DNA from: Sporolactobacillus kofuensis
Lineage (GTDB): Bacteria; Bacillota; Bacilli; Bacillales; Sporolactobacillaceae
DNA: 64,000 nt
Direction: 5' to 3'
Assembly: GCF_024125425.1 (NCBI RefSeq)
Contig: NZ_JAMXWN010000004.1
Coordinates: forward strand, 124,001 to 188,000
The position numbers and the translations under genes are program-made. Within the stretch, counting starts at the first letter, position 1. Each line of letters begins with the position of its first letter. Shown here in pieces: positions 1 through 61,623 of this stretch. The notes beneath the pieces were generated by a model, which was not told where the DNA came from, ran no database searches, and saw only the letters and a list, made by a program, of their open reading frames with translations.

Positions 1-2366
1 AGATCCATACTCATCGTGCAGGCAACCATTTTCACGCCAAGCTGTTTTGCACGCTCGATCATAACAGCAAGACTATCAACATTCTTGTCAGCCATGACCT
101 TTTTTATCATTTTCGGCCCTATGCCACCCATATTCATCCGTGAGAGCGGCAAATGATCCGCGCTCTTCGGCAGCATCATACTGAACAGTTTGTCGGTTCC
201 CGACTTGCTAATCTTTGTATTGGCATGCCTCTTAATAATATTTAGCCCCCAGAAGGTGAAGAAAAGCGTGACTGGCTTGCCCATCGCAGCCGATCCAGTC
301 GCAATAATAAACGTTGCGATTGCTTTATCCAAATCGCCGTCAAAAACCACCATCGTCGTTGCACCGCCAGTGTCTGGGGCAGCTTGCAACGTATGAGCAG
401 CATCGTCATGGCTAGCCTTTACTCCCTTCACCAGCGTCGCAACCACCTTATTGCCGACAATATCATTCGTCAGCAATTGATTACCTGTCGCATTTGCCCA
501 AGCAACAATATCCTTGTGAAAACCAAAATCAGAAGCCTGCACTTGCAAGATGTCTCCCTTATTCATCTTCTCCATGGATTGCTTGACCTTGAGAATAGGA
601 CCTGGGCACTGTAGCCCGCAAGCATCTACTTCAATTTTTGTACATTGCGGTGCTTGCTGCGCAGTTGTTGAATCCGATCCACTTTGAGCTGCAAGATGGG
701 GCTGCGTTTTCATCTGACCCGTCTCATACTTTGCTTGTTCATAAGTTTTTAAACCGCCGTCAAGATTATAGACTTCAAAACCATTTAGTGCCAAAATGCG
801 CGCGGCATTATAACCACGAAGTCCTACAGAGCAATAAACGTAAATCGGCTGTTCCTTGGGAAGCTCCGCCATCCGCCCTCTTAGTTCGCCTCGTGGAATA
901 TGATGACTGCCAGGAAGTTTTCCGGCAGCAAGCTCGAAGGATTCGCGAACATCCAAGAAATACGCCTGTTTCTCAATCAGTGCATCGACCTCATGCCATT
1001 CAATCGTCTTCACTAATCCTTGCCGCTGATCCGCAGCGATATAACCAGCATAGTTGATCGGATCTTTTGCCGATGCATACGGCGGCGCATACGCTACTTC
1101 AATCAACTGAAGATCCTCAACCGATCCGTTTAAACGCATCACTGCTGAAATCATGTCAATGCGTTTGTCCACGCCTTCCGTACCAATGGCTTGCGCACCG
1201 AGAATTTTCCCATGTTCACCATAGATCACTTTCAATTCAATGGGTGCTGCGCCAGGATAATAGCCTGCATGGGAATTGGGGTGTAAATGAACAACCTGAT
1301 AGGCAATGCCGGCCTGATTCAAAAGGCGCTCGTTTTTCCCTGTGGTTGCCACGGTGAGTGCAAAAACCTTAGCCACAGCTGTACCCTGCACAGGAGGATT
1401 CTTCGCATCCAACCCATTTAGATAGTCTGCGAGAAAACGTCCTTGCCGATTGGCCGGGCCGGCAAGGGGGATTAACGTTGGTGTACCAGTGATGAAATCT
1501 TTAACTTCGATCACATCGCCAATCGCAAAAATATCTGGAACATTTGTTTCAAAATGCTCGTTAACAACAATCGCACCTTTAATGCCCGTCTTCACACCCA
1601 CTTTTTGCGCCAATGTACTGTCGGGTAAGACGCCGATCGCCATCACGGTCAGGTCGGTGTCTATTTCTTTGCCGCTACTAAGCACTACCGTTTTCCCATT
1701 GTCGGAAAAACGTGCAACGCCATCGTTTAAGATGAGTTGAACACCATGAAGTTCAATTTGCTCATGAGCAAATTGCGCCATTTCAAAATCAAGCGGTGCC
1801 ATCACTTGCGGACTCGCTTCAACAAGTGTGACCTCCAAGCCGAGATCTGCAAGATTTTCAGTCATTTCTAGCCCAATAAAGCCGCCACCGATTACCGCAG
1901 CTTTGTGCACTATATGAGCATCGATATAATTTTTTATACGTTCAACATCCGGTATATTCCGTACGGAAAAGACATTATCCGCTTGATCAAGTCCCTGGAT
2001 CTTAGGTACAATCGGTTTTGCGCCAGTAGAAAGGATTAAACGATCGTAATGATCCGTTGCCGCTTCACCGTTCAACACATTTTTTACCGTAATGATGTGT
2101 TTTTCCGGATCTACATTAACCACTTCTCTGTTGTTGTGCACCTCAATATTGAATTCCTTGACCATGTTCTCAACCGATTCGACAAGCAGCGCGTCTTTTT
2201 CAAGGATGGTACCGCCGACATAATACGGCAACCCGCAATTAGCAAAAGAAATGTAGGTACCTTTTTCATACATGACAATTTCATTATCTTCACTTAATCG
2301 CCTGAGCCGTGTCGCTACACTTGCACCGCCGGCAACGCCGCCGACAATAATGATTCGCTGTTTCAC
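1..2366 (-). CDS. CoA-disulfide reductase / rhodanese / TusA / DsrE-like fusion protein (3' end outside window)
   Basis: Multidomain sulfur-handling flavoprotein, about 788 codons visible. The start is GTG at 2366, preceded by AGGAGG; no in-frame ATG lies nearby. Residues 5-20 carry a glycine-rich FAD-binding motif (IIIVGGVAGGAS). Cys44 sits in an NCGLPYY motif typical of the CoA-disulfide reductase/NADH oxidase family. A rhodanese domain begins near residue 450 with putative catalytic Cys512 (YVYCSVGLRGY). A TusA-like domain follows with CGLQCPGP (Cys583/Cys587), then a DsrE-like domain from about residue 645 to the window edge. Family knowledge suggests reduction of CoA disulfide or persulfide and sulfane-sulfur transfer; the exact substrate is inference. 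The promoter holds a CstR/CsoR-like palindrome, which suggests induction by sulfane sulfur. The next gene upstream is a glutaredoxin with the same operator. Confidence 0.9.
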   Translation of the reverse strand, partial: MKQRIIIVGGVAGGASVATRLRRLSEDNEIVMYEKGTYISFANCGLPYYVGGTILEKDALLVESVENMVKEFNIEVHNNREVVNVDPEKHIITVKNVLNGEAATDHYDRLILSTGAKPIVPKIQGLDQADNVFSVRNIPDVERIKNYIDAHIVHKAAVIGGGFIGLEMTENLADLGLEVTLVEASPQVMAPLDFEMAQFAHEQIELHGVQLILNDGVARFSDNGKTVVLSSGKEIDTDLTVMAIGVLPDSTLAQKVGVKTGIKGAIVVNEHFETNVPDIFAIGDVIEVKDFITGTPTLIPLAGPANRQGRFLADYLNGLDAKNPPVQGTAVAKVFALTVATTGKNERLLNQAGIAYQVVHLHPNSHAGYYPGAAPIELKVIYGEHGKILGAQAIGTEGVDKRIDMISAVMRLNGSVEDLQLIEVAYAPPYASAKDPINYAGYIAADQRQGLVKTIEWHEVDALIEKQAYFLDVRESFELAAGKLPGSHHIPRGELRGRMAELPKEQPIYVYCSVGLRGYNAARILALNGFEVYNLDGGLKTYEQAKYETGQMKTQPHLAAQSGSDSTTAQQAPQCTKIEVDACGLQCPGPILKVKQSMEKMNKGDILQVQASDFGFHKDIVAWANATGNQLLTNDIVGNKVVATLVKGVKASHDDAAHTLQAAPDTGGATTMVVFDGDLDKAIATFIIATGSAAMGKPVTLFFTFWGLNIIKRHANTKISKSGTDKLFSMMLPKSADHLPLSRMNMGGIGPKMIKKVMADKNVDSLAVMIERAKQLGVKMVACTMSMD

Positions 2367-2424
2367 AATGAGCCCTCCTGGTGCATGTATTCATGGCGAT
2401 GGATTCGCCAATGTTCAACCGTAT

Positions 2425-2442
2425 TATACCCTATGGGGTATA
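2425..2442 (-). promoter_or_regulatory. CstR/CsoR-family-like operator in the promoter of the CoA-disulfide reductase fusion
   Basis: TATACCC (2425-2431), 4-bp spacer, GGGTATA (2436-2442): perfect 7-bp arms. It lies between a plausible -35 (TTGTAA) and a TATAAT -10 (complement of 2423-2428), overlapping the -10, as expected for a repressor site. The ATACCC-N4-GGGTAT form resembles operators of CsoR/CstR-type repressors. CstR is the better guess because the regulated genes handle sulfur; no repressor gene is in the window. Confidence 0.65.
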
Positions 2443-2545
2443 TAGTTTACAATCTTTTCTCAATACCCAAAAAATGAGAAGGGGGTTTCCTGTTCTCTTT
2501 TTGGTCAATTATTGATTTCTTCAACCTATTGCTGGTCAAGCAAGA

Positions 2546-2779
2546 TTATGCATGAACAAAACTCATGATTCGATTAGGATCAAATCCGAGTACCCATTGA
2601 CCATTAACATTTGTTTGTGGCACACCCATTTGTCCGGTTGTTTCCACAAGACGTTGACCAGCAACTGGATCTTGTTGCACATTGACTTCTTTAAATGGCA
2701 ATCCTTGTTTTTCAAGAAAATTCTTCACCATATGGCAATAAGGACAAGTATTGGTCGTGTACACAGTAATTTCATTCAT
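2546..2779 (-). CDS. Glutaredoxin family protein (NrdH/YruB-like)
   Basis: A 77-residue thioredoxin-fold protein with the redox motif CPYC at residues 12-15 and the conserved GVPQTNVNGQWVLGFD segment, where the cis-Pro and the substrate/thiol-binding region lie. Its length matches the small glutaredoxin-like or NrdH-type redoxins, which reduce disulfides or mixed thiols in the cytoplasm. No nrd genes are nearby. Instead the gene lies directly upstream of the CoA-disulfide reductase fusion on the same strand, and both have the same ATACCC-N4-GGGTAT palindrome. A role in low-molecular-weight thiol or persulfide reduction is therefore a reasonable inference. ATG start with an AAAGGAG-like ribosome binding site. 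Confidence 0.88.
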   Translation of the reverse strand: MNEITVYTTNTCPYCHMVKNFLEKQGLPFKEVNVQQDPVAGQRLVETTGQMGVPQTNVNGQWVLGFDPNRIMSFVHA

Positions 2780-2891
2780 CGCTAATAACTCCTTTAAAAT
2801 GTTTTTTCAATCTTAAAGTCAAAAGTTTAATTGTTTATCACTAGCGAGCCGATATCCTCAAAACCTAACATGAGATTCCGACTACAATTGC

Positions 2892-2912
2892 AGTATATAC
2901 CCATACGGGTAT
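2892..2912 (-). promoter_or_regulatory. CstR/CsoR-family-like operator and -10 region of the glutaredoxin gene
   Basis: ATACCC (2897-2902), spacer ATAC, GGGTAT (2907-2912): perfect 6-bp arms with the same 4-bp spacing as the site at 2425-2442. A TATACT -10 (complement of 2892-2897) abuts it and the -35 region is weak (TTCCCT). The two matching sites suggest that one repressor controls both sulfur/thiol genes. Confidence 0.62.
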
Positions 2913-3038
2913 TCAGGGAACTATTTTGCTCACAAATTTTTCTCCATCCTCATTAATCACATGCACCTCGCGGCAGAGTATGGAGAATTGATCATTTTTA
3001 CTTTTTCTTCGATCTCAAAATGCTTTTAACCAGCTTTT

Positions 3039-3114
3039 ATCGGTCTCTTCGAAAAAAATATCGGTCTGTTTCACAGATTTATCGGTCACTTTTCAAAATT
3101 TATCGGTCTTATCG
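3039..3114 (+). repeat. 21-bp-period repeat array A (four units, core ATCGGTC)
   Basis: ATCGGTC occurs at 3039, 3060, 3081 and 3102, exactly 21 bp apart, with AT-rich linkers of the type TTTTCAAAAT. A partial ATCG follows at 3111. The rest of the 458-bp gap between the glutaredoxin and dagK holds only the operator above and the dagK terminator. See the related arrays at 4577, 52905, 54127 and 61501. Confidence 0.9.
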
Positions 3115-3190
3115 TAAAATCCACGTACAGAGTTGATTCATCTCTTTATAATAGAGCGATAAATACACAAACCGCTTGCACACGCATGCG

Positions 3191-3230
3191 AAAGTGCCAT
3201 GAACCCCATTGAGTTCATGGCACTTTTTTC
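3191..3230 (-). terminator. Hairpin terminator downstream of dagK (possibly bidirectional)
   Basis: Perfect 14-bp stem (3191-3204 with 3213-3226). The longest T-run is on the plus side (CTTTTTTC); the minus side has only TTT. It sits directly after the dagK stop codon, so it probably ends the gatCAB-dagK transcript and may also block plus-strand readthrough. Confidence 0.7.
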
Positions 3231-3237
3231 AGCCTGT

Positions 3238-4176
3238 TTACTGGAGTTGTTTCACTTCTTGCTCAATGTTCAGCAGATGCGCATCCTGCGTTTCTTTCGG
3301 GACCATCAAATGCAGATGGTGATAGAGATTAACGATTTCGCCGGGCAGATCACCGCCATATTCTCCGTCGATATTCAGCTGCATTTTTTCTTGGGATTCA
3401 ATCTTGATGCGGCTTGCTTGAGCATAGATGACTTTCTCATCTTTCATATGCTCACCGCGAGTGGCCATGGATGCGAGGCGAATGAACTCCGCCAGGTTGG
3501 CCGCCTTCAATATAATCAGGTCGAACAGACCGTCGTTCATTTTTGCTTCGGGAGCAAGCTTCTCGAATCCGCCGACTGAGTTGCTGTTGGATACGAGAAA
3601 CAGCATGATGTCGCCTTCAAAGGTGCGATCGTCATAATCAATTTTCACTTTGATTGGCCGGATCGATGGAAGCATTTCAATGCCCTTGATAAAATAGGCC
3701 ATCTGGCCAAGCATGGTTTTCAGCTTGCTCGGTACATCATAGGTCAACTCGGTCAGTTTCCCACCGCCGGCGATGTTAACGAAATAATTGTTGTTGACTT
3801 TGCCAATATCAATCGGCATCTCGTGACCGTTGCAAAGCACATCGCAAGCTTTGACAATGTCACGGGGAATGCCGACGGCGCGGGCAAAATCATTGGTTGT
3901 TCCTAATGGCAGGATGCCGAGCTTCGGGCGATAATCCATTTCCGCAAGTCCATTGATCACCTCATTAATGGTGCCGTCACCGCCTGCCGCCACTACCAAG
4001 TCAAATTTCCGCTTGACTGCTTTGCGCGCGCCTTTCGTTGCATCTCCCTCGGCTTTGGTCGCATAGGCTGATGCTTCATAACCTGCATCCTCAAGACGAT
4101 CCAGAATGTAGGCGATATTTCTCTTCGCCAGTTCGCGGCCTGACGTTGGATTGTAGATTAATCTTGCCTTCTTCAT
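3238..4176 (-). CDS. dagK: Diacylglycerol kinase (DagK)
   Basis: A 312-residue lipid kinase of the DgkB/DagK family, which phosphorylates diacylglycerol to phosphatidic acid at the inner membrane face and recycles diacylglycerol released during lipoteichoic acid synthesis. The start MKKARLIYNPTSGRE matches the family N-terminus; ATG 4176 is chosen because GGGTGA precedes it, over a GTG three codons upstream. The kinase signature GGDGT lies at residues 65-69, followed by a conserved PLGTTNDFARA segment. It sits directly downstream of gatB, as in Bacillus subtilis, and ends at a strong hairpin, so it is probably the last gene of the gatCAB-dagK transcript. A 704-bp gap with repeat arrays separates it from gatB, and a separate promoter there is possible. 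Confidence 0.93.
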   Translation of the reverse strand: MKKARLIYNPTSGRELAKRNIAYILDRLEDAGYEASAYATKAEGDATKGARKAVKRKFDLVVAAGGDGTINEVINGLAEMDYRPKLGILPLGTTNDFARAVGIPRDIVKACDVLCNGHEMPIDIGKVNNNYFVNIAGGGKLTELTYDVPSKLKTMLGQMAYFIKGIEMLPSIRPIKVKIDYDDRTFEGDIMLFLVSNSNSVGGFEKLAPEAKMNDGLFDLIILKAANLAEFIRLASMATRGEHMKDEKVIYAQASRIKIESQEKMQLNIDGEYGGDLPGEIVNLYHHLHLMVPKETQDAHLLNIEQEVKQLQ

Positions 4177-4576
4177 GATTATCACCCAATCAAACTCTAT
4201 ATATAAATATCTACGTTCAAATGTAGAAAAAGGAGTCTTCCTTATCGGCTTAAATTTAAGATGTCATATGTCATGGTACGATTTATCGGACGCTTTTGAT
4301 TGTTTTTATTCATTGTTTCCGATCTCACTTACTGCTAATCAGCGATTGGAACAAATCAATGGTTTCTGAGACAATCATGGATGCGTTTACGTAAAACTGC
4401 AACTGCACACAGTTCGCTCTCTTTTCACGAACTTCCTTATTTTATTATATTGTAAACAATTTTTAAAATCAAAATCGATCACGTGACGTTTCAATGGTTC
4501 GCTTTCCAATGCAGTCGGCATTTGCCGTGGCAAATGCCTGCCGATTTTAAACTGTATAAGTCAGTTTTACGAACTT

Positions 4577-4667
4577 ATCGATCAGTTTCAAAGTTTTATC
4601 GATCAGTTTGGAAAAAGTATCGATCACTTTCAAAAATTTATCGATCAGTTTGGAAAAAATATCGATC
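4577..4667 (+). repeat. 21-bp-period repeat array B1 (five units, core ATCGATC)
   Basis: ATCGATC occurs at 4577, 4598, 4619, 4640 and 4661, each exactly 21 bp apart. The linkers alternate between a TTTCAAA and a TTTGGAAAAA type. The period is a multiple of three, so the region stays open as a fake reading frame with a heptapeptide repeat. Two degenerate ATCGG matches further upstream (4244, 4285) may be decayed units. Confidence 0.9.
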
Positions 4668-4690
4668 ATTTCAACAGTTGCCAGCAATCA

Positions 4691-4799
4691 ATCCGGTCGT
4701 TATCGCGGATAATTCGTCGTTGCGGCGTTTCATTCGGTCATCGCAGATATTCCGGTCGTTACCGAAAATAATTCGGTCGTCTTCACGAATAATCCGGTC
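4691..4799 (+). repeat. 21-bp-type repeat array B2 (core ATTCGGTC/ATCCGGTC)
   Basis: CGGTC occurs at 4694, 4735, 4753, 4774 and 4795 with a degenerate CGTCG at 4715. Spacing is 21 bp for several steps and imperfect (about 20 and 18 bp) in the middle. The unit looks like AATTCGGTCGT followed by a GC-richer linker than in array B1. The same sub-type recurs near 61501. Confidence 0.75.
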
Positions 4800-4839
4800 T
4801 AAGTGCCAAATATGGTAGCGAACATCGGCGTTTTACCGC

Positions 4840-4876
4840 AAAAAAGCGGGATCCCGCACAATTAGGGGTCCCGCCT
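4840..4876 (-). terminator. Rho-independent terminator downstream of gatB
   Basis: Stem of 10 bp with one mismatch (4846-4855 with 4865-4874), GC-rich, followed on the minus strand by TTTTTT (complement of 4840-4845). It lies 15 bp past the gatB stop codon, so much gatCAB transcription probably ends before dagK. Confidence 0.85.
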
Positions 4877-4890
4877 TTACAGCTTTATTT

Positions 4891-6327
4891 TTACAGCTTG
4901 TCAATTTCTTCGAGAATGATCTTGTTGACCATCTTTGGATTGGCTTTGCCGTGTGTTTGTTTCATGACCTGTCCAACAAGGAAGCCGAGGGCACGGTCCT
5001 TGCCGTTCTTGTAGTCAATCATGGATTGCTTGTTGGCTTCGAGAATCGGTGCCAGCATTTCGCGAAGTGCGCCTTCGTCGGAGATCTGAACAAGGCCTTT
5101 GGCTTTGACAATTTCTTCCGGATCGCCACCCTTTTCGATCAGGTCTTTGAAGACCTTCTTGGCGATCTTGCTGGAAATCGTGCCTTTTTCAATCAGCTGC
5201 ACCAGTTTGGCCAAGCCTTTGGCGGTCATCGGTACTTGATCGATGGTCTTGTACTTGCTGTTCAGGTACGCAGACACATCGCCCATCAGCCAGTTAGACA
5301 CGAGTTTGGCATCGGCACCTTCAGCAACGGCATCCTGGAAGAAGTCGGACATCGTTTTCGCCTGTGTAAGCACCATTGCGTCGTACTCCGGAAGGCCGAA
5401 TTCTTCGACGTAGCGTTTCTGACGAGAATCCGGCAGCTCAGGAATTTCCGCTTCGATCCGGTCGATCCATTCCTGATCGATCTTCAGCTTGATGATATCC
5501 GGTTCCGGGAAGTAACGGTAGTCTTCGGAGCCTTCTTTACCACGCATTACAGTTGTCGCTTTAGTTGCGTCATTATAACGGCGCGTTTCCTGAACGACTT
5601 CGCCGCCGGAAAGCAAAACCTTTTCCTGACGTTTTTCTTCGTAAGCGAGCCCTTTTTCAACAAATGTGAATGAGTTCAGGTTCTTCAATTCGGTCTTTGT
5701 GCCAAATGTCGTCTGGCCGAAAGGACGGATGGAAATGTTGGCGTCACAGCGAAGCGAGCCTTCTTCCATCTTGACGTCGGAAACGTCGATGTACTGCATG
5801 ATCGCTTTCAATTTTTCCAGATAAAGATAAGCTTCATGTGGGTCGCGCATATCTGCTTCGGAAACGATTTCGATCAGCGGTGTGCCGACACGGTTGAAGT
5901 CGACAAGCGAACCGGAACCGTCTTCCAAGTGGTTCAGCTTTCCGGCGTCTTCTTCGAGGTGCAGACGGTGCACACCGATCCGTTTCTTTTCGCCATCGAG
6001 TTCGATTTCAATGTAGCCGTTGCGTCCGATTGGCTGATCGAACTGTGAAATCTGGTAGGCTTTCGGATTATCCGGATAGAAATAGTTTTTGCGGTCAAAT
6101 TTGGTCTCACGTGAGATTTCGCAATTCAGCGCAAGCGCTGCTTTAATTGCATAATCAACGGCTTCGTGGTTCAAAATCGGCAGAACACCAGGATGTCCGA
6201 GACAAATCGGGCATGTGTTGGTGTTCGGTTCGGCACCGAATTGGTTGGCGCAGCCGCAGAATGCTTTCGTTTTTGTTTTCAGTTCGACATGGACTTCAAG
6301 TCCGATGACTGTTTCAAAATTGCTCAT
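4891..6327 (-). CDS. gatB: Aspartyl/glutamyl-tRNA amidotransferase subunit B
   Basis: A 478-residue GatB, full length for the family. It is the kinase and tRNA-binding subunit of GatCAB: it phosphorylates Glu-tRNA(Gln) or Asp-tRNA(Asn) before the ammonia released by GatA is added. Visible family features are the N-terminal [12 protein letters not shown] motif, zinc-site cysteines (CGCAN and CPICLGHPG), the phosphotransfer core containing [16 protein letters not shown], and a C-terminal YqeY-like tail ending in [16 protein letters not shown]. Its ATG overlaps the gatA stop (ATGA), so translation is coupled. A terminator follows directly. Confidence 0.97.
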
Positions 6328-7784
6328 TTATTCATCGCCCCTTTGGCAGGCGTTAGTGTAAATCCGGCGGTTTGTTCATAGGCATGAGCCGCGCGATACA
6401 GTGTCTCTTCGCCGAATGGTCGACCGATCATCTGCAGACCGACCGGAAGTCCATCAGCAAGACCGCATGGAAGGCTGATCGCTGGAATGCCTGCAAGGTT
6501 GACTGGAATTGTTAAAAGGTCGTTTGCATACATCGTCAGCGGATCATCGATATTTTCACCGATCTTGAAGGCAGTGGTTGGTGTCGTTGGTCCGACAATG
6601 ATGTCGTGATCCTTGAACACTTTTTCAAAGTCTTGCTTGATCAGCGTGCGCACTTGCTGCGCTTTTTTATAGTAAGCATCATAATAGCCAGAACTCAGAG
6701 CAAAGGTACCAAGCATAATTCGGCGCTTCACTTCATCGCCGAAGCCTTCGCTTCTCGATTTGTTGTACATGTCGATCAAATCGTTTGTTTCCGCGCGGAC
6801 GCCGTAACGAACGCCGTCAAAACGTGCGAGGTTAGCCGACGCTTCAGATGAAGCAATAATATAGTAAGCAGGCACCGCATATTTCGAATGCGGCAAGGAC
6901 ACTTCGTCCACAACCGCACCCAGTGATTCGAGCTGCTTAATGGCTGCACGGATATTCGCTTTTACCGATTCATCGATACCTTCGCCGAGGTATTCTTTCG
7001 GAACAGCCACTCGGAGACCTTTGATGTCGCCGGTCAAAGCCGCGGCATAATGAGGTACAGCTAAATCGGCACTTGTTGAATCATGGCGGTCAAGTCCGGC
7101 AATGGTTTCAAGCAGGTACGCGTTATCTTCGACCGTACGTGTAATTGGTCCTGCCTGATCCAATGATGACGCAAAAGCAACCAATCCATAACGGGATACA
7201 CGCCCATAAGTCGGTTTCATGCCGACAACGCCGCAGAATGCGGATGGCTGGCGGATGGAACCACCTGTGTCGGTACCCAGCGCAAAAAGCACTTCGCCCG
7301 CAGCGACCGCCGCTGCGGAACCGCCGCTGGAGCCGCCCGGTACACGTTCGAGATCCCATGGATTTTTCGTAATCGCAAAAGACGATGTTTCAGTAGATGA
7401 ACCCATCGCGAACTCGTCCATGTTTAATTTTCCGATGGTAATCGCCTTTTGTGTTTTTACCTTCTCAACTACGGTAGCGTCATAGAGCGGATCGTAGTTT
7501 TCAAGAATATGGCTGGCACAAGTGGTTTTCAATCCCTTTGTGACCATGTTATCTTTAATTCCGATCGGCATGCCTGTAAGAATTGCATCTTCAGCGGATC
7601 CGTTTTCGTCAATGGCCTTTGCTTCTGATCTGGCTGCTTCTTCATTCAAGGTCAGAAACGCCTGCACATCACCATCGACATCATGAATACGCGTAAATGC
7701 TTCGTCGACAAGATCGGATGCCTTGATTTCCTTGCTATGTAACTTTTGAGACAAAGACACAAGGCCTTCTTCAAAAAGTGGCAT
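6324..7784 (-). CDS. gatA: Aspartyl/glutamyl-tRNA amidotransferase subunit A
   Basis: A 486-residue amidase-signature enzyme that hydrolyses glutamine to supply ammonia to GatB. The Ser-cisSer-Lys triad is visible: Lys77 (GIKDNM), cis-Ser152 ([10 protein letters not shown]) and nucleophile Ser176 ([11 protein letters not shown]). ATG 7784 is preferred because AAGGAGG lies 7 bp upstream and the protein then starts [11 protein letters not shown] like other GatA proteins; a TTG eight codons upstream would overlap the ribosome binding site. It lies 24 bp after gatC and overlaps gatB by 4 nt. Confidence 0.97.
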
Positions 7785-7808
7785 CACTATTTCCTCCTTC
7801 AGCTTCAA

Positions 7809-8105
7809 TCAATCCGCTTCCATAATCAGCGGTACTTTAACTTGTCCATCTTCCTGGAGCGGTGCGTTCTTGAGCGCTTCTTCGCGCGGCAATGATGGTT
7901 CAACAACATCCTCGCGCATCACATTATACATGTCCAGCACGTGGGTGGTCGGTTCAATGCCTTCTGTATCCAGTTCATTAAGCTGTTCTGCGAAACCAAT
8001 GATCGCATCCAACTGCGTCGTAAATGTTTTTATTTCCTGATCATTAAAAGACAATCGCGCCAGATTTGCGACATATTTTACTTGTTCTTCGTCGATCCTG
8101 CTCAT
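7809..8105 (-). CDS. gatC: Aspartyl/glutamyl-tRNA amidotransferase subunit C
   Basis: A 98-residue GatC, first gene of the gatCAB operon. GatC is a small belt-like subunit that stabilises the GatA-GatB interface. The sequence shows the family N-terminus ([20 protein letters not shown]) and a C-terminal region with an MREDV segment and a VPLIMEAD ending. ATG 8105 has GGAGGTG just upstream. The longer TTG reading (six codons) would consume that site. Confidence 0.96.
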
Positions 8106-8240
8106 CTTTTTCACCTCCGCCAATCGGCTTCATTTGCCACCTCTTGGCAAATTCCAACAATGCTTTAATCATATCAAATTCTCTCTGCACTATGCAATGA
8201 TTGCAGTGGGCAAACCACATAAATAGAATCGAAAGTTTCC

Positions 8241-8876
8241 TTAATACAACTCACTGATTTTGATCAGTACCTTGTAAAGGGCGGTAAGCCCAAATGCGAG
8301 AATAATGAGTGCAGAAAACCGGTTTATCCAGCCTAGTCGTGTTGTGTCCATCTTTTCCCGAAAATACCCGACACATACGCTGAGCAGCAACCACCATAAC
8401 GCCGACCCGCAAAAGACGCCGATCACTAATAGCATCGCAGCAGCAGGGTTTCCAGCCGGAATGCCCATGCCGGCAAAAATACTGATAAATGATAAGATCG
8501 TCATCGGATTCGTCAGCGTCAAAAAGAAAGTAGACAGATAGCTACCGATGATTTGCCCCGTCTGTCTCATCCCTTGAGGCTGATGTTTCGCTACAGCAGA
8601 CCGCCATGTTCTCATGCCCAAGAAGCAGAGAAAACAGCCACCAATCAGTTGGAGCCAAAACTGCTGTCCTAGCAAAAGTTGCGAGACTATAGTGAGGCCA
8701 AATGCTGCAATTGCCCCATAACAGGCGTCAGCGCTCGCCGCACCAAGACCGGATACCAATCCGTGGATGCGTCCCAATGCGAGTGTTCTTCGAATGCAAA
8801 GTACGCCAATTGGACCTACCGGCGCAGCGATTACAAAACCCAAAATGAGACCTCTCAGGAAAAAGGATACGTCCAT
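8241..8876 (-). CDS. LysE/RhtB-family amino acid exporter
   Basis: A 211-residue, strongly hydrophobic protein with about six membrane segments. The conserved LysE-superfamily N-terminus GFVIAAPVGPIGVLCIRRTL is at residues 13-32, and a TNPMTILSF motif lies near the middle. Family members export amino acids or small metabolites by proton antiport; the substrate here cannot be read from sequence. It starts 9 bp after an Lrp/AsnC regulator on the same strand, a common arrangement in which the regulator senses the exported amino acid. Confidence 0.88.
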   Translation of the reverse strand: MDVSFFLRGLILGFVIAAPVGPIGVLCIRRTLALGRIHGLVSGLGAASADACYGAIAAFGLTIVSQLLLGQQFWLQLIGGCFLCFLGMRTWRSAVAKHQPQGMRQTGQIIGSYLSTFFLTLTNPMTILSFISIFAGMGIPAGNPAAAMLLVIGVFCGSALWWLLLSVCVGYFREKMDTTRLGWINRFSALIILAFGLTALYKVLIKISELY

Positions 8877-8885
8877 TGGTTCACC

Positions 8886-9347
8886 TCATGCAAACCGATC
8901 AGAGTGAATCGGAAGCTTATTCGTTTCCTTCAATGAGTTCATCACAATCGTTGTGCGCGTCTTCACACCGGGCAATGCCTTCAATTCACAGCTGATCACT
9001 CGGTCCAAATCCTTCGTGTCTCGACATCGCACCTTCAGCAAATAATCATAGGCACCAGCAATGTGATGACATTCTTGGATCTCCTCAAGCTTAGCGACAA
9101 TGTCCAGAAAGTCGGCACGCTGCTCAGTCTTCTCTAGTGTCACTTCCACAAAAGCTGTGCACGTATTACCGACATGCTCCGTATCAACGACCGCCTCATA
9201 CGATTTGATCACCCCTCGCTCCTCTAAGCGTCGCACTCTTTCCGCAGTCGCAGGTGAAGACAAGCCAATCTCATTTGCCAAATCCGACCATGTTGCACGC
9301 CCGTCCTTCATTAATCGTACGACTAATTTATAATCATATGAATCCAA
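8886..9347 (-). CDS. Lrp/AsnC family transcriptional regulator
   Basis: A 153-residue Lrp-type regulator. An N-terminal winged helix-turn-helix lies at about residues 3-60 (ATWSDLANEIGLSSPATAERVRRLEERGVI), followed by a RAM/AsnC ligand-binding domain at about 65-140 containing GAYDYLLKVRC. The start is TTG at 9347 with AGAAGGCG upstream, giving LDSYDYKLVVRLMKDG, which fits the family N-terminus; no ATG is available. It is translated immediately before the LysE-family exporter and very likely controls it in response to an amino acid. Confidence 0.9.
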   Translation of the reverse strand: MDSYDYKLVVRLMKDGRATWSDLANEIGLSSPATAERVRRLEERGVIKSYEAVVDTEHVGNTCTAFVEVTLEKTEQRADFLDIVAKLEEIQECHHIAGAYDYLLKVRCRDTKDLDRVISCELKALPGVKTRTTIVMNSLKETNKLPIHSDRFA

Positions 9348-9500
9348 TATGTATCGCCTTCTTTTCTTAACTTATTACTCTAATTATACTAACATAACTA
9401 AATAGCACAATGTTTTCATCGAAAGATCTCCCATCAATGGCCATTTCGTCTTCTGTTTTTCGATGGAGATCATTACTAAAGAGCATCATGCTCTGAACGT

Positions 9501-9540
9501 AGAAAAAGAGTGAAGCCTTTAGTAACTGCTTCACTCTTAT
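9501..9540 (-). terminator. Rho-independent terminator downstream of camS
   Basis: An 11-bp perfect stem (9506-9516 with 9528-9538) followed on the minus strand by TTTTT (complement of 9503-9507). It separates the pcrA-ligA-camS transcript from lrp-lysE. Confidence 0.88.
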
Positions 9541-9573
9541 CGCCTAACTAGTAAATGTTTTCCTACACAAAGC

Positions 9574-10752
9574 TTAGTGTTGGAAAATATGGACATACGG
9601 TTCATCCATGCTGCTTGTGCGCTCGATCAACGCTTCCGGAACACTGCCTGTTGTGATATAAATGTGGATTGGCAAACTATGTGAAAATGGAATCCGGTCC
9701 TTCACCAATGAAGTCACATAGTTGGTAAAGCTCAGCATTTCCGTCTCATCAACAAATTTATTAAAGTTGATATCCAAAGTCAGATCACTCAATTGTTTGT
9801 TCCGATAATATGCTTTGCCGATCACACCGACATAATCAGGATAGTACTTCTGCACGAGACTCTTTACTTGATTGAATTTCTGCAGATCTTCCTTATAGTG
9901 GCTGGTTGCCGTATTCGATGGGAACAAGACATGATGTTCATCCACATTTGTCCATTTACTAACCGTTGTCGATCCGCTTGGAACTTCCGCCGTTGCGAAG
10001 AAGTCTCCCGGTACATACGATTGCGGCGCCGCGGTCATGTAGAGCGTCATGAAAATAGGTACATTTTGCAAATCACTGTGTAGATTTCTGATCCGCTGAA
10101 GGATTTGCCCAGCATGTGCCTTTCCCCACGCCTTTACTTTTGCCCGATTTAAATTCTCTGAAATCGGATAAATCTTGCCGTTATAGTTAATATTATCTGC
10201 ATACACGGAGTTCAAAGATACCGCAATGGATAGACCGGCAATCTTGTATTGTCCTTTATTGTTTTTCTTCAAATAATCCTGCTCAAGAACATAATTAATG
10301 TATTTCGGACTGCTCTTCGACTGATTAACAATATTATTTCCTTTTCCAAGTGCCGGATTTATTCCCGGTACATTTTTATGGGGTTCCTGTCCGCGTCTGT
10401 AGAGAATACTATTAATCGTTGATTCAGTCATATATTGTCCGCTCTGAAAAACATAATCTTTCGTACTGTATACACTTTTGGACAAATTCATCAGGCCGAG
10501 TTCGAGCTGATCCATATCGACACGATTCTTTGGCCCATACTGAATATAGCCGCGCGTTGGATCGGCTTCCTTTGGTTGCAACGATTGATAATCCGAATCA
10601 TTAGCATTAGGAATCAAACTGGCCGTCTCGGTCTTTCCACTATCTGTCTTCACTACTTTATTATCCGATGCATTACTAAACCAGCATCCTGACAAGACGA
10701 GCTGCAAGGAGAGCAACACTGATCCTACAGCTGCTGTTTTTTTCCATTTCAT
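9574..10752 (-). CDS. camS: CamS family sex pheromone-type lipoprotein
   Basis: A 392-residue lipoprotein precursor. The signal peptide (MKWKKTAAVGSVLLSLQLVL) ends in lipobox LSGC with the lipidated Cys23. The rest matches the CamS/YerH family, whose processed signal peptides act as sex pheromones in enterococci and staphylococci; the function of the mature protein is unclear. It follows ligA directly, as yerH follows ligA in Bacillus subtilis. ATG 10752 is preferred because the AGGGG site is well placed for it; an ATG three codons upstream (10761) abuts that site. Confidence 0.9.
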   Translation of the reverse strand: MKWKKTAAVGSVLLSLQLVLSGCWFSNASDNKVVKTDSGKTETASLIPNANDSDYQSLQPKEADPTRGYIQYGPKNRVDMDQLELGLMNLSKSVYSTKDYVFQSGQYMTESTINSILYRRGQEPHKNVPGINPALGKGNNIVNQSKSSPKYINYVLEQDYLKKNNKGQYKIAGLSIAVSLNSVYADNINYNGKIYPISENLNRAKVKAWGKAHAGQILQRIRNLHSDLQNVPIFMTLYMTAAPQSYVPGDFFATAEVPSGSTTVSKWTNVDEHHVLFPSNTATSHYKEDLQKFNQVKSLVQKYYPDYVGVIGKAYYRNKQLSDLTLDINFNKFVDETEMLSFTNYVTSLVKDRIPFSHSLPIHIYITTGSVPEALIERTSSMDEPYVHIFQH

Positions 10753-10764
10753 CTGGGACATCCC

Positions 10765-12783
<2,019 letters not shown>

Positions 12784-12852
12784 TTACAGGTATCCATGAA
12801 CTGCGCATATGCCGCGCCATCTATTCATGAACTTCATTCTATTATTAACCGA

Positions 12853-15081
12853 TCACACTTTTTCAATCGGTGCGAAAGCGCCAAGCAGTCGTTTGAGACC
12901 AATCGGGCTTGGGAATACGATATCCAGTTCAACACTATCCCCATCCCCGCGTTTGCCAACGATCGTCCCTTGGCCCCATTTCTTATGAAGAACCTTGTCT
13001 CCGGCTTGCCAAGTCTCTGTGTGATGATTTGATTTCTGCAGTACCGGTGTCGGACGACTTTGCGGAGTTGTAAATTTGCGTTCAAATGGAGAACCTGACA
13101 TTGATTTGGACGAGAATCTTCCGGTGATTTGACGTTCCTCAGAATCTTCTACCTCGAGCAACTCTTTAGGAATTTCTTTAATAAAACGAGAAGCCGGGTT
13201 AGCAATGGTTTTCCCGAACAACATGCGTACTTGTGCACTGGTCATAAAGAGTTGCTGCTTGGCACGTGTAATGCCAACGTACGCCAAGCGCCGCTCTTCC
13301 TCCATTTCCTCTTCATCATCCAAGGCACGAAGATGAGGGAAGATGCCTTCTTCCATCCCAACGAGGAATACAACTGGAAACTCCAGACCCTTAGCGGAGT
13401 GCAAGGTCATCAATGTCACTGCATCTTGCACCGTCTGATCTTCTTCTTCATCGATATCAGCATCTAAGGCGAGTTCGGTCAAGAAATTAATCAAGGACTT
13501 ATCTTCATGTGTACTCTCAAATTCCTTCGTCACAGAGAGCAATTCATCGAGGTTCTCCAACCGACTTTGTGCTTCAATCGTTCGTTCGGACTTCAAAGCC
13601 TCACGGTAGCCGGATTTATCAAGGACATCTTCAACTAACTCCGTAACCGAAAGAAATTCCTGCATTTTCGACCAGTTCATAATCATGTCGGCAAAGGCTT
13701 CTATTTTGTGAGCCGTCCGTGCAGCGATTCCCGTTTGTTCAACTTCGTCGATCGCTTTCATTAACGAAAGATCTGCAGCCAGTGCATAATCCGCCAGCTT
13801 ATCCATAGAAGAAGCGCCAATACCGCGCTTCGGTTCATTGATAACGCGTGCCAAACTGATTTCATCATCCGGATTGGCAATTAGGCGAAGATAAGCGAGC
13901 ATGTCTTTGATTTCTTTGCGGTCATAGAATTTAATACTTCCAACCATTCGGTAGGGAATATTTGATTTTACGAGCGTTTCTTCGATCACACGCGATTGGG
14001 CATTGGTTCGGTAAAGGACAGCCAGTTCCGAATACTTGAACCCATCTTTAGCTAACTCACGCATTTTCCCAGCAATATAATAGCCTTCTTCACGTTCCGT
14101 TGGTGCGCGATAATAGGCGATTTTCTTCCCATCGGCGTTTTCTGTCCATAGATTCTTCGGCTTGCGATCATGGTTGTTCTCAATCACGTGATTGGCAGCG
14201 TCCAGAATCTTCTTTGTCGAGCGGTAGTTTTGCTCCAGCTTAATCACTTCAGCATTTGGGTAGTCTTCCTCAAACGAGAGAATGTTATGAATGTCGGCAC
14301 CGCGCCAGCCGTAGATGGACTGATCCGAATCACCGACCACACATAAATTTTTGAAACAATCGGCCAGCATGTGTACAAGCAAGTACTGTGCTCTGTTCGT
14401 ATCCTGGTACTCATCAACATGAATATATTGAAACTTCTTTTGATAATAGTCCAATGCTTCAGGAACTCTTTGAAAAAGATGAACTGTAGTCATAATGAGG
14501 TCATCAAAATCAAGCGATTGGTTCTGAAGTAGTTTCTTTTCATAATCCTTATAGACATCACGCACCACTTCGTCATAAGGCCCTTGTGCAACCTTGGCAA
14601 ATTGAGCGGCAGTTTTCAGTTCGTTCTTAGCAGCGCTGATTTTTCCAAGAATGCCTCGTGGTGTAAATTTCTTCGGGTCCAAATTCTGATCCTTAAGAAT
14701 TTGCTTAACCACCGATAACTGGTCGGTACTGTCTAAGATCGTAAAATTCCGACTGATCCCTAAGCGATCAATATCGCGGCGCAAGATACGCACACACATG
14801 GAGTGAAACGTTGAAACCCACGCATCTTCAACAAGTGGTCCGGCAAGATTCGCCAGTCGTTCTTTCATCTCTTTTGCCGCTTTATTTGTAAACGTAATCG
14901 CCAATATATTCCATGGTGCAACATCACGTTCAATCATCATATACGCCATTCGGTGTGTCAGTACACGTGTCTTCCCACTACCTGCACCCGCCATAATCAA
15001 TAGCGGTCCTTCGTGATGTTTGACCGCCTTTAGTTGTTCCGGATTCAATCCTTCAAGCAGTTCTTGTGAAAGCCGGTTCAT
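12853..15081 (-). CDS. pcrA: ATP-dependent DNA helicase PcrA
   Basis: A 742-residue UvrD/Rep-type 3'-5' helicase acting in repair and rolling-circle replication and displacing RecA. Seen: Q motif LNPEQLKAV, Walker A GAGSGKT (residues 32-38), Walker B region VDEYQDTN, motif [17 protein letters not shown], motif IV LEQNYRS, and a C-terminal tudor-like tail ([18 protein letters not shown]) that contacts RNA polymerase in the family. ATG 15081 follows AGGAAGTG. A longer alternative frame start 23 codons upstream lacks a ribosome binding site and homologous sequence. Confidence 0.98.
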
Positions 15082-15296
15082 TTCATCACTTCCTAAATAA
15101 TAGAGTTGCTGTCGAATGAATAATTCAAAGAGAAATAAAGACTCCGCCACTATTCACCCATTTACCATATATCTGTCAATCGGTTTCTTTCTTCATTCAC
15201 ATAAATCGTGTGCAAATGCAAAGCCGGCGCATTCTGAACACTACCTGCAGAACACCCCGTCTTCTCATCTACCTGTTCATGTTTGCCTCGGTTAGA

Positions 15297-15593
15297 TTAC
15301 TTTTGCTCTTCCAACCGATCAAGCGTCATTTGATACCCGTCAGTGCCGAAATTGATGCAGCGCTTGACCCTGGATATCGTTGCTGTACTTGCACCTGTTT
15401 CTTCTTCAATCTGATGATATGTTTGTCCCGCCATCAGCATTCTTGCCACTTCCAGACGTTGCGACAGCGACTGAATTTCTCCCATTGTGCAAAGATCATC
15501 AAAGAATCGATAACATTCTTCACGATCTTTCAATGTCAGGATGGCATCAAACAGCTGATCAAGAGACTTGCCTCTCAATTTATCAATTTGCAA
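15297..15593 (-). CDS. yerC: YerC/YecD family TrpR-related protein
   Basis: A 98-residue DNA-binding protein of the TrpR-like YerC/YecD family. The helix-turn-helix is ETGASTATISRVKRCINFG. The start is TTG at 15593, preceded by AAAGGAA; the MQIDKLRGKSLDQLF N-terminus matches family members, and no ATG is in frame. The role is not established; family members are predicted regulators. In Bacillus subtilis yerC precedes pcrB and pcrA. Here pcrA follows after a 215-bp gap in which no pcrB gene is found. Confidence 0.88.
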   Translation of the reverse strand: MQIDKLRGKSLDQLFDAILTLKDREECYRFFDDLCTMGEIQSLSQRLEVARMLMAGQTYHQIEEETGASTATISRVKRCINFGTDGYQMTLDRLEEQK

Positions 15594-16070
15594 CCTTGTC
15601 CATTCCTTTCCCCACGGTTAATCCGTAACTTCATCACTTTCACACGTTTCTCGTTCCACAAATAGATGATCCATTTGCTCGAGCATACTTGTTCAAGCAG
15701 ATCTATCTTTATCTTTCATCTTAAATGCGAATATGTCCACATTTCGAAAACGACATTACTACTCCTTTTATCATCTTACATCAATTATGGCTAGTGATAA
15801 AGTCAGAGAAAAAAATGTTTTCATTCTGTACTGTGTGAAAATCTCTTATTCACTTAAATGTACACTGATCGTGACGGATCAGAACGAATCTCAGCAATTT
15901 TTATACATTTCTGTCCGAACAGATGGATGAGTTGAGTAGCAAAACTTTGGGGTATCGGTCTGTTTTGCAATTTTATTGGCCATTTAGCGATGAACGAGTA
16001 TAAGCTTGGTCGCGCATCTTCGTTGCATGTGTACACTCAATGTGTTTACCTTCTTATTTTTTTAAAAAAA
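15594..16070. other. Intergenic region upstream of yerC with few recognisable elements
   Basis: No convincing gene. Short frames on either strand lack ribosome binding sites and recognisable similarity. An imperfect 18-bp palindrome (CTGATC-N6-GATCAG, 15865-15882) could be a regulatory site. ATCGGTC at 15954 with a degenerate ATTGGCC exactly 21 bp later (15975) looks like a decayed two-unit copy of the 21-bp array family. Confidence 0.5.
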
Positions 16071-16107
16071 GCCCCCTCCACTGAGTGCGGTGATCAGCGA
16101 GGGGGCC
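16064..16107 (-). terminator. Rho-independent terminator downstream of the L-LDH gene
   Basis: GC-rich stem (16071-16078 with 16099-16106) followed on the minus strand by TTTTTTT (complement of 16064-16070). Located 20 bp after the L-LDH stop codon. Confidence 0.9.
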
Positions 16108-16126
16108 GTGCTATTTTTCAAAATCT

Positions 16127-17104
16127 TTATTTTGTTGTTTCTTCGTGTTCATCCAACGTTTGCTTAATGTATCCTTTGATGAGTTCAGCAGATGCATTAA
16201 AGCCTTGTTGTTCCTGATCATTCAATCTCAACTTAATGATCTTCTCCACACCATGCTTGCCGAGAACAATCGGCACACCTATTGCTAAATCAGTCTGGCC
16301 ATATTCACCGTCTTGAACGACTGATGCAGCGGTAACGATGTGCGCATTATTCAGAATTGATTTAGCAAAGAATGCCAGCTCATTTCCGATACCAAACTGT
16401 GTGTTGCCCTTTCGAGTAAGAATCTCCCATCCGAAATGCCTTGCTGTATCCTCTACAGACGGACGATCAATTTTTCCTAATTCATCCTGATTGTCTTCTT
16501 CGAATTGATCAAGCGGTTGGCCGCCGATGGTTACATGGGACCAGGCAGCAATCTGCGAATCCCCATGTTCACCGACCATGAATGCATTGATGCTTCGTGG
16601 ATCAATGCCGCCGACTACTTTAGAAATCTGTTTGCGTAACCTCATGCTGTCCAGTGATGTACCGGTTCCAATCACATGGCTCTTTGGAAGTCCTGAGAGT
16701 TTATAGAATAAATAGGTAATGATATCGCATGGGTTGGTTGCAATCACGTATTTTCCTTGAAAGCCAGCCTTCTTAAGTCTTGGGACAATATCATATGTAA
16801 TTGCCGCTGTTCCTTTTAATAGTTCAAGTCGAGACTGACTCGGAATCTGTGATCTTTCCGTTACCGCAACTAGAATGACGTCACATGCAGCAAGTCCTTC
16901 AAGTGGAACATCGATGACACGCGTTCTTGATTGGGTAAGTTCAATACTATCCTCGAAATCGTACGCTTCACCCTTTGCACGTTCCGAATCAATATCTGAA
17001 AGGTACAGTTCGTCCGCGATGTTCTCATGTACAATGGTAGAAGCCGCTGCTTTCCCAACATTACCAATGCCGACGATACCTACTTTTCGAATCGTTTCGT
17101 TCAC
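16127..17104 (-). CDS. L-lactate dehydrogenase family protein (L-LDH or L-2-hydroxyisocaproate dehydrogenase)
   Basis: A 325-residue NAD-dependent 2-hydroxyacid dehydrogenase of the LDH/MDH fold. The N-terminal Rossmann motif is GIVGIGNVG, with an acidic NAD-ribose segment at SDID (about residue 37). The catalytic loop reads TERSQIPSQSR, aligning Gln86 with the lactate-selecting Gln102 and Arg92 with Arg109 of classical numbering. The catalytic His lies in GEHGDSQ. The loop departs from the usual NQKPGETR, and parts (DPRSINAF) resemble Lactobacillus HicDH, so activity on bulkier 2-oxoacids is possible. GTG start with AAAGGAGAGG. Unlike adhE and the D-LDH gene, no Rex palindrome was seen upstream. 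Confidence 0.85.
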   Translation of the reverse strand: MNETIRKVGIVGIGNVGKAAASTIVHENIADELYLSDIDSERAKGEAYDFEDSIELTQSRTRVIDVPLEGLAACDVILVAVTERSQIPSQSRLELLKGTAAITYDIVPRLKKAGFQGKYVIATNPCDIITYLFYKLSGLPKSHVIGTGTSLDSMRLRKQISKVVGGIDPRSINAFMVGEHGDSQIAAWSHVTIGGQPLDQFEEDNQDELGKIDRPSVEDTARHFGWEILTRKGNTQFGIGNELAFFAKSILNNAHIVTAASVVQDGEYGQTDLAIGVPIVLGKHGVEKIIKLRLNDQEQQGFNASAELIKGYIKQTLDEHEETTK

Positions 17105-17230
17105 TTCAATCCTCTCCTTTGTTTTCTAATTTAGTATTCCTTATCTCGTTCCGTTATTTTACACCTTCGTACTCGTTGCATCAATAATTTTCGGATTATT
17201 TGCACTTGCCTCACTTGCCTATACTAAATT

Positions 17231-17260
17231 TAAAAATGATTGCTACTAGCATCATTTTTA
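17231..17260 (-). terminator. Hairpin terminator downstream of the PIN-domain gene
   Basis: Near-palindrome of 30 bp (arms TAAAAATGAT / ATCATTTTTA plus inner GCTA/TAGC, one bulge), with U-rich flanks in both directions. Located 45 bp after the PIN gene stop codon and upstream of the L-LDH gene. Confidence 0.6.
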
Positions 17261-17304
17261 TCTATCATAAATTTTGCGCTTGTTTTTATAGAGAAATCAG
17301 TCGA

Positions 17305-18544: not shown

Positions 18545-18565
18545 TTCAACAACCTCCTTATTTCC

Positions 18566-52904: not shown

Positions 52905-53031
52905 ATCGATCATTTTCAAAATTTTATCAGTCATTTTGAAATTTTTATCGATCACTTTTAATTTTTTATCGATCGTTTTGAAAAATTTATCAGTCATTTT
53001 CAAAATTTTATCGATCATTTTCAATTTTCAT
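52905..53031 (+). repeat. 21-bp-period repeat array C (six units)
   Basis: ATCGATC or ATCAGTC at 52905, 52926, 52947, 52968, 52989 and 53010, exactly 21 bp apart. The order of core variants is GATC, AGTC, GATC, GATC, AGTC, GATC. The final unit runs into the stop codon of the NERD gene. Nearly identical to array D at 54127. Confidence 0.93.
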
Positions 53032-53989
53032 GGAGTATATCCCTCGATAAATAGTAAATTCTGGCTTTATTTTTTCCTTCAAAGTAATCGCATAGTGTAT
53101 GAAGTAATCGTCTAGCAGTTAATTCAGATTTTAATAGTAGAAAATCCCTGCATTTCTGATTCGTGATCTCTGGACCATAGATCAAAAAATAATCACGAAG
53201 CGCAGCTAAATGAGTATTTCGTGAGGCATGGCCGCAATTGCATACCCACTTTTGTTTCATTTTGAGTATTGGTACCGTATCGCAATTCGGGCACTGGACA
53301 CCTTTTATTATATCGTTAGGTTTTAGTTTAGTCGTGAATTTTTTAATCACCCGTGTTTGATGGTTTGCGAGAAGTGCATCAGCTACCTTTTTCAGCGACT
53401 CATACGAGACATAGTCTTTAGAAAATTGTTGATTCACTTGGAGAAGTTCCGCTTTGAGTTTGGCTCTTCGCACAATTTTTTTAATCCGATCATTTTTTAA
53501 ATCGGTGACCTGAAGCTGGGCGGAAGAAGCAATAACGACTCGATCTACAATCGGTATGGATATCCCGTAGTATCGCTCCAGCCAATCAAGCAACTGCATG
53601 TTTAGATTCTCAGCTTGCAAAATTGGATCATCAAACACATCAGTTGAATCATCCACTTCCCGAATTAATTGATTTAAATCGGTATCAAAAGTCAGCTTTC
53701 CGATAATATTTTTCACTTCTAAAATGAGTGCAAATCTTGAGCATAGGATAAGAAAATCGATCTGAAAATGGTGATGGCCATCAAATAAGCGAAGATCATG
53801 AAAAATGAAGAAATCATCCTTGGGGAGATAACTAAGCGGATAGTCCAGCGACTGTTCACCGCGAAAGCCTGCCATTGCTCTTTTGTAGAGCGACGTTAGA
53901 TCGTCACGATACGCGCTCGGTTTTACTCGACGAATCAGTACCTCAAGCTGTGACACATGGTAAGGAAGTTGAATGGGTTTTACGTACAC
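53021..53989 (-). CDS. NERD domain (nuclease-related) protein with C-terminal zinc ribbon
   Basis: A 322-residue protein. Residues about 40-150 form a NERD domain: QIDFLILCSRFALILEVKN holds the acidic/ExK residues of the restriction-endonuclease-like fold. A four-cysteine zinc ribbon (CPNCDTVPILKMKQKWVCNCG region, about residues 245-265) follows, then a helical tail. NERD proteins are predicted DNA-processing enzymes; the substrate is unknown. GTG start with AGGCGG. It is bracketed by arrays C and D, and its last codons overlap array C. Confidence 0.85.
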   Translation of the reverse strand: MYVKPIQLPYHVSQLEVLIRRVKPSAYRDDLTSLYKRAMAGFRGEQSLDYPLSYLPKDDFFIFHDLRLFDGHHHFQIDFLILCSRFALILEVKNIIGKLTFDTDLNQLIREVDDSTDVFDDPILQAENLNMQLLDWLERYYGISIPIVDRVVIASSAQLQVTDLKNDRIKKIVRRAKLKAELLQVNQQFSKDYVSYESLKKVADALLANHQTRVIKKFTTKLKPNDIIKGVQCPNCDTVPILKMKQKWVCNCGHASRNTHLAALRDYFLIYGPEITNQKCRDFLLLKSELTARRLLHTLCDYFEGKNKARIYYLSRDILHEN

Positions 53990-54126: not shown

Positions 54127-54253
54127 ATCGATCATTTTAAAAATTTTATCAGTCATTTTGAAATTTTTATCGATCACTTTTAAATTTTTATCGATCGTTT
54201 TGAAAAATTTATCAGTCACTTTCAAAATTTTATCGATCATTTTCGAAATTCAC
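54127..54253 (+). repeat. 21-bp-period repeat array D (six units)
   Basis: ATCGATC or ATCAGTC at 54127, 54148, 54169, 54190, 54211 and 54232, exactly 21 bp apart, with the same order of core variants as array C and only a few base differences in the linkers. It lies upstream of the NERD gene. The first unit begins after GCGTAT instead of GCGTTT, so even the left flank is similar. Confidence 0.93.
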
Positions 54254-61485: not shown

Positions 61486-61500
61486 CCGGATTAATTATCC

Positions 61501-61610
61501 CAGTCGTGGATAAGCGGAATCCGGTCGTTCCAGTGGTTTATCCGGTCTTCGGAAAAATTAATCTGGGCATTTTCGAGCATAATTCGGTCGTTATCTCAAT
61601 TTTTCCGATC
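61501..61610 (+). repeat. 21-bp-period repeat array E (core CGGTC)
   Basis: In exact 21-bp register: CAGTC 61501, CGGTC 61522, CGGTC 61543, TGGGC 61564, CGGTC 61585, CGATC 61606. Degenerate units still keep the phase, so the period has been maintained while the sequence decayed. Same sub-type as array B2. Confidence 0.85.
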
Positions 61611-61623
61611 CCTATCTAATGTT

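Follow-up and report, generated by a model that had tools for sequence, protein, structure and literature searches.

The tandem intergenic repeats found in a 64,000-nucleotide stretch of the Sporolactobacillus kofuensis genome (hereafter the window) are probably one half of a gene-repeat system that resembles RAYT/REP, in which a chromosomal NERD-domain protein, the other half, would bind the array on one face of the DNA. NERD genes and arrays are linked, mostly with a core that is specific to the paralogue and with a regular geometry between gene and array, the period is fixed at two helical turns, and arrays resemble one another as blocks with sharp edges. In Sporolactobacillus these blocks frequently contain six units, and scattered solo arrays lie mostly at gene 3' ends. 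The original prediction, which had read the repeats as an array of protein-binding sites, is partly supported; it missed that six is the commonest number of units, a second core, the position of two arrays on either side of a likely cognate gene, and the paralogue-specific cores.

Arrays in the window

The arrays and the NERD gene of the window are as follows.

3039..3108, + strand: array A, 4 units, core ATCGGTC, step 21 bp; intergenic, 3' side of dagK
4556..4667, + strand: array B1, 6 units, step 21 bp; between dagK and the gatB 3' end
4691..4800 (about), + strand: array B2, six units, core YCGGTCG, steps 18-21 bp
52905..53016, + strand: array C, 6 units, step 21 bp; begins at the NERD stop codon (3' array)
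53021..53989, - strand: NERD-domain gene, 322 aa; Pfam PF08378, E 3.4e-14; putative array-binding protein
54127..54238, + strand: array D, the 5' array of the NERD gene, ~135 bp ahead of its start; 6 units, step 21 bp
61500..61611, + strand: 61.5-kb array, six-register, degenerate, YCGGTCG type; between two convergent genes

Arrays A and B1 had been described with four and five units at an exact 21-bp step, and both are real; B1 additionally has a decayed sixth unit, reading ATAAGTC (at 4556), ahead of the five clean ATCGATC units (4577-4667), and its counterpart in G002 opens with ATCAGTC. Similar arrays had also been placed at 52.9, 54.1 and 61.5 kb. All are present, and the first two have six units at 21 bp, but the 61.5-kb array has another core, with four units readable by core and two by register only. 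Two different cores therefore occur within the 64-kb window, ATCGRTC (A, B1, C and D) and YCGGTCG (B2 and the 61.5-kb array). C and D, which flank the NERD gene, are 97% identical over 112 bp while their own flanks, at ~40%, are unrelated; at six other two-sided NERD loci the 3' and 5' arrays are 63-88% identical. In S. putidus (G006) similar arrays share a common 3' tail of ~90 bp at several loci, and this, together with the identity of C and D between unrelated flanks, indicates that the array behaves as a block with sharp edges. This conserved tail, 3' of the last unit at G006 L187, L189, L192, L198 and L199, suggests a longer dispersed element.

Period, unit number and conservation

In the window genome (G000, 2.96 Mb) we counted 30 ATCGRTC-N14-ATCGRTC pairs, with none for the reversed-pattern control, and the gap was exactly 14 bp in 30 of the 35 ATCGRTC pairs separated by 3-33 bp. 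A core-free 7-mer scan of array loci from five species, chosen because they hold arrays, returned 41 arrays over the lags 14-30, every one of them at lag 21. The 21-bp spacing is not universal, as arrays of Peribacillus and some other Bacillales mix 20 and 21 bp or are purely 20 bp, a mixture that fits two helical turns and not a reading frame. Neither are the arrays confined to one clone, a possibility raised at the outset: at least one two-unit match occurs in 13 of 15 genus genomes, some of them probably by chance.

When decayed end units are counted in, arrays most often have six units, as do 29 of 58 from five species (G000 7/12, G002 2/10, G003 2/6, G004 3/5, G006 15/25), where G002, G004 and G006 are taken as Sporolactobacillus laevolacticus, S. 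nakayamae and S. putidus; in G002 four units are commonest (10 arrays). In Sporosarcina a conserved terminal unit served as anchor for 26 arrays, several of which come from strains of a single species; five more units lie upstream of it in 18 of them, and clearly more than five in none. Some arrays reach 46 units, and whole units are lost or gained between arrays (L161 vs L169).

At the position of array C there are corresponding arrays in G004 (L182), G003 (L178) and G006 (L197), and at that of D in G006 (L197). Each of these has six units and the same core, with linkers alike in little but their T-rich ends. Over the short distance between G000 and G002 the core is not clearly more conserved, with changes at 4/105 core and 12/163 linker positions in the three alignable pairs, a fourth pair being out of register.

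Three other explanations of the repeats as such were tried and rejected. For a structured RNA, folding z averaged -0.54 and -0.62 over 50 arrays, and Rfam gave no match beyond the purine riboswitch of the window. For a coding heptad repeat, the best reverse frame was open in only 30 of 51 arrays, and the 20/21-bp mixtures break the frame. A linker palindrome amounted to a weak dyad in Sporosarcina only (z 3.7).

Linkage of NERD genes and arrays

A search of 15 genus genomes with the NERD protein of the window gave 62 matches in 56 places, all of which were examined, in two batches (24 and 32), by an array scan that used no known core. An array of 20- or 21-bp period lay within ~1.5 kb at 47 of the 56 places (23/24 and 24/32), which are related by descent and so not independent; other lags from 12 to 33 produced a single match, at lag 12, inside the NERD coding region of L315. 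Sorted by open-frame length, an array stood beside 42 of 46 NERD genes of at least 290 aa vs five of 10 shorter or broken ones (Fisher p 0.006). The full-length genes with no detected array are L302, L305, L313 and L317, and at L305 the contig ends 85 bp after the stop. The same scan found arrays at 4/15 gatB loci, a control that is if anything high because gatB was chosen for adjoining arrays in the window, and in 297 of 1771 unselected 3.9-kb windows of an array-rich Sporosarcina.

The geometry is also regular. A 3' array follows 32 of the 38 NERD genes classed intact, at a median gap of ~20 bp from the stop codon, and a 5' array is present at 11 of the 56 places, in six cases 119-155 bp upstream of the start.

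Seven loci from outside the genus have a NERD gene, or a piece of one, next to an array; five of them had been chosen for arrays of that type, while the NERD-side arrays of L214 and L217 had not.

L040, Bacillus litorisediminis: NERD gene or piece beside array
L041, Sporosarcina luteola: NERD gene or piece beside array
L212, L214 and L217, Sporosarcina thermotolerans: NERD beside array; frames look interrupted or short
L239 and L244: NERD gene or piece beside array

At L217 (Sporosarcina thermotolerans 1-20000) the NERD gene is accompanied by 20-bp TTTATGCG arrays, with several copies in 20 kb. As to wider spread, Bacillales make up 44 of 107 stretches among the matches listed from a genome-wide scan. 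Of 26 family genomes, seven have the three-unit ATCGRTC pattern, and these all belong to the genus of the window; a related TTATCG pattern with various cores occurs in 19 of 299 genomes of the order.

The NERD protein

The protein of the window matches PF08378 with 53.7 bits against a gathering score of 22.1, and all 22 aligned members match this family, with E up to 0.01. It is the only confident Pfam match; weak zinc-ribbon matches appear in a few members (Zn_ribbon_IS1595 in 3/22, best E 0.0021). D78 is kept in 22/23 relatives and E91 and K93 in 23/23, all three being invariant in the 22-row alignment, and we read them as putative catalytic residues of the PD-(D/E)XK nuclease type. Four cysteines are likewise invariant in the relatives, and the C-terminal part may form HTH-like helices, judging by its residues. 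The protein would then probably consist of a nuclease-like domain, a zinc ribbon and a C-terminal helical part. An AlphaFold model had a pLDDT of 43, and searches of the PDB gave either no match or ribosomal zinc ribbons alone, none better than E 0.075.

A plasmid or phage origin of the gene was considered and is not borne out, as tblastn found no match in plasmids (E 1e-8) or phages (1e-5) and none in viral contigs. PHROGs returned one family of unknown function with a weak match to residues 40-248 (E 0.00019), so distant phage relatives exist. PADLOC reported a marginal similarity to PglW (E 0.0027).

Repeat dialects and protein divergence

Most NERD paralogues have their own repeat core. 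Over 36 loci the similarity of motifs rises with NERD identity, on the same strand only, and in a Mantel test the observed values, one for each half of the protein, were reached by none of 500 permutations. When the C-terminal part was considered given the N-terminal part, its partial correlation was reached by 84 of 500 permutations set-wide, and for this reason we rejected the C-terminal part as sole carrier of the dialect over the whole set. One pair of orthologues is suggestive of a core switch alongside C-terminal divergence: the NERD proteins of G000 and G002 share 82% identity over residues 1-215 and 50% over residues 216-322, with the cores ATCGRTC and YCGGTCG respectively. The whole protein, at 72%, is not exceptional, since 14 neighbouring proteins share 65-94%. 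The ATCGRTC arrays of G002 are shorter than those of G000 (p 0.035).

We also matched seven scattered arrays to 47 NERD-flank motifs. For four of the seven (B1, L195, L200 and L262) the best flank was in the same genome. Array A of the window matches sister species best, the G004 gatB array matches a place in G011 best, and for B2 and the 61.5-kb array the best of the 47 flanks is that of the G002 orthologue of the window NERD. At L262 (G012, 3' of gatB) we noted very long TTCGGTCTAACTTTT arrays and a separate GGTGCGACTTT array in the same intergenic place.

Presence of the 21-bp ATCGRTC array follows NERD only loosely. Arrays of at least three such units occur in 7 of 15 genus genomes. In G000, G003, G004 and G006 the NERD gene has the ATCGRTC core; G002 keeps 18 three-unit matches though its NERD has the YCGGTCG core; and G008 and G011 have few (1 and 4), the close NERD relatives there being broken. 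The remaining eight genus genomes have no three-unit 21-bp ATCGRTC array, and among them a NERD of G005 carries the ATCGRTC core at a 20-bp step.

Genomic surroundings

Arrays avoid divergent promoter regions: these hold 5 of 72 arrays from seven genomes, yet make up 71 of the 323 intergenic regions that are 150 bp or longer (p 0.003), the genes having been called by a simple purpose-made caller. In Sporosarcina thermotolerans 8 of 13 arrays lie between convergent genes vs 19 of 152. Across G000, G002, G003 and G004, 29 of 33 arrays face the 3' end of an opposite-strand gene as their first neighbour on the 3' side, and 24 of 33 are antisense to both neighbours; orthologous arrays enter these counts separately, so the cases are not all independent. 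This orientation bias is absent in S. putidus G006 (7/16) and Peribacillus (4/10). The 20 proteins that neighbour arrays at 12 places, taken with the genes of the window, have mixed functions and none in common, including a ribosome hibernation factor, SecA, a PEP-utilising enzyme, transporters, GatB and diacylglycerol kinase; a functional regulon of array neighbours was rejected on these grounds.

The suggestion to plot the arrays by strand, position and distance to the origin was followed on one closed chromosome, that of Sporosarcina thermotolerans, and yielded only a weak enrichment on the origin side: its 22 arrays, which occupy either strand on each side of the origin, have a mean distance to dnaA of 0.62 Mb vs 0.91 expected (p 0.004). 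A replication-strand or terminus rule is not borne out by these strands and positions. The dnaA gene itself (G026:C1:487413-488722) was matched as two overlapping pieces, one with internal stops, possibly a sequencing frameshift.

Comparison with known systems

In the RAYT/REP system, according to the available text of its description, a gene is flanked by its cognate repeat, many solo copies are scattered elsewhere, the dialect of the repeat tracks the protein, and repeat number is linked to presence of the gene (PMC2817692). The NERD gene likewise stands beside cognate repeats that are also scattered elsewhere, with the exceptions of A, B2, the 61.5-kb array and the G004 gatB array, which match NERDs of other species better. 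There are also differences. The protein belongs to the NERD family and is not a Y1/HUH transposase, the repeat is a direct array of 20-21-bp units and not a palindrome, and the copies flanking the NERD gene are direct and not inverted. We would thus describe the NERD/array pair as working, by analogy, like RAYT/REP, and not as a member of that family, given that the protein is no Y1 transposase and the repeat no palindrome.

Iterons of plasmid origins are direct repeats spaced about two helical turns apart and bound by one protein. The NERD arrays share this spacing and a single putative binding protein, but are chromosomal and scattered, with no tie to a replication initiator. Chromosome sites of the RacA, Noc or parS type, as published, are inverted repeats; the arrays, being direct 21-bp repeats, are unlikely to belong with them. 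Intergenic direct repeats with the motif TAACTGA in marine Beggiatoaceae differ in lying mostly just upstream of start codons, and the available text reads them as sites of a post-transcriptional regulator and names no cognate gene beside them (PMC4679880). A limited literature search, covering openly licensed papers and the top of long lists, found no described family of this form, in agreement with the original prediction, no link in print between NERD domains and repeat arrays, and no earlier description of a NERD-array system, so novelty is not proven.

Interpretation and rival explanations

The account that we judge the likeliest starts from a NERD gene which usually carries an array of its own dialect just past the stop codon, with another at times ahead of the start. 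The protein would bind the core through its zinc-ribbon and C-terminal part, and several molecules would line up next to one another along a single face of the DNA. Arrays may be copied as whole blocks within and between loci, aided by the NERD protein as REP depends on RAYT, and a shift in the specificity of the protein would leave the old arrays to decay.

The placement of arrays at gene 3' ends could instead mean that NERD serves the host by organising the chromosome or insulating transcripts, with arrays as stations selected at these positions. The shared position of array C in four species and of D in two, with core and six-unit length constant and linkers different, would suit such a role, as would the avoidance of divergent promoter regions, the preference for convergent genes in Sporosarcina thermotolerans, the opposite-strand gene 3' of most arrays in G000, G002, G003 and G004, and neighbours of no common function. 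Yet a preference for 3' ends is equally expected of repeats that are merely tolerated, the orientation bias does not extend to S. putidus or Peribacillus, and arrays that occur patchily, change dialect fast, coexist in several dialects within a genome, occupy both strands and are no more than weakly enriched on the origin side sit poorly with it, so that we regard this explanation as unlikely, if worth keeping in view. Conservation of the nuclease-type residues, several NERD paralogues per genome and the PglW similarity could also point to defence, where a NERD nuclease would attack foreign DNA while chromosomal arrays titrate it or mark self; with a PADLOC score that is marginal and no tblastn relatives in phage and plasmid records or viral contigs, we consider this improbable.

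A 5' array at a minority of NERD places, in some of them 119-155 bp from the start, is what would be seen if NERD were an autoregulated transcription factor and the scattered arrays its regulon. Those arrays are mostly at gene 3' ends, however, and their neighbours form no regulon, which makes operator arrays a very improbable explanation. Least credible of all are neutral slippage satellites functionally unrelated to NERD. The loss and gain of whole units and the arrays of up to 46 units might speak for them, but the NERD linkage scans and the covariation of dialects already contradict them: periods are 20-21 only, half of the arrays have six units, nearly all full-length NERD genes are linked to an array, and the core is kept where linkers are replaced. 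The preference of the original prediction for protein-binding sites over slippage therefore appears well founded as far as sequence can tell, with core and spacing kept, linkers turning over and a putative cognate gene adjoining.

Beyond the RAYT/REP-like account, we offer tentatively, and with rather less conviction than that account, a bolder proposal: that NERD proteins may be specificity-evolving nucleases which write the arrays that they bind, copy them and keep them up throughout Bacillales. Gene and repeats, whether domesticated or selfish, would then form a gene-repeat system of a new class, whose dialects would arise by C-terminal divergence, after which the whole array set is replaced or decays. 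If true, NERD proteins, known here only as nuclease-related, would gain a predicted DNA target and a testable role, and a family of tandem intergenic repeats would be explained. It would also be a second, independent case of a protein co-evolving with scattered repeats, in which natural dialect pairs make the rules of recognition readable.

Other features

In G000 and G002 one intergenic array adjoining dagK seems to lie in two parts or two copies on either side of a ~8-kb insertion (L161/L162 and L169/L170 vs L184 and L177); the other gene that flanks it we take, by eye, to be RNA methyltransferase-like. The window also contains a purine riboswitch at 31659-31760 on the - strand (Rfam RF00167, 81.5 bits) and, at its end (62996-63995), a ~210-bp tandem repeat of 4.8 copies adjoining an ORF with an LPXTG anchor.
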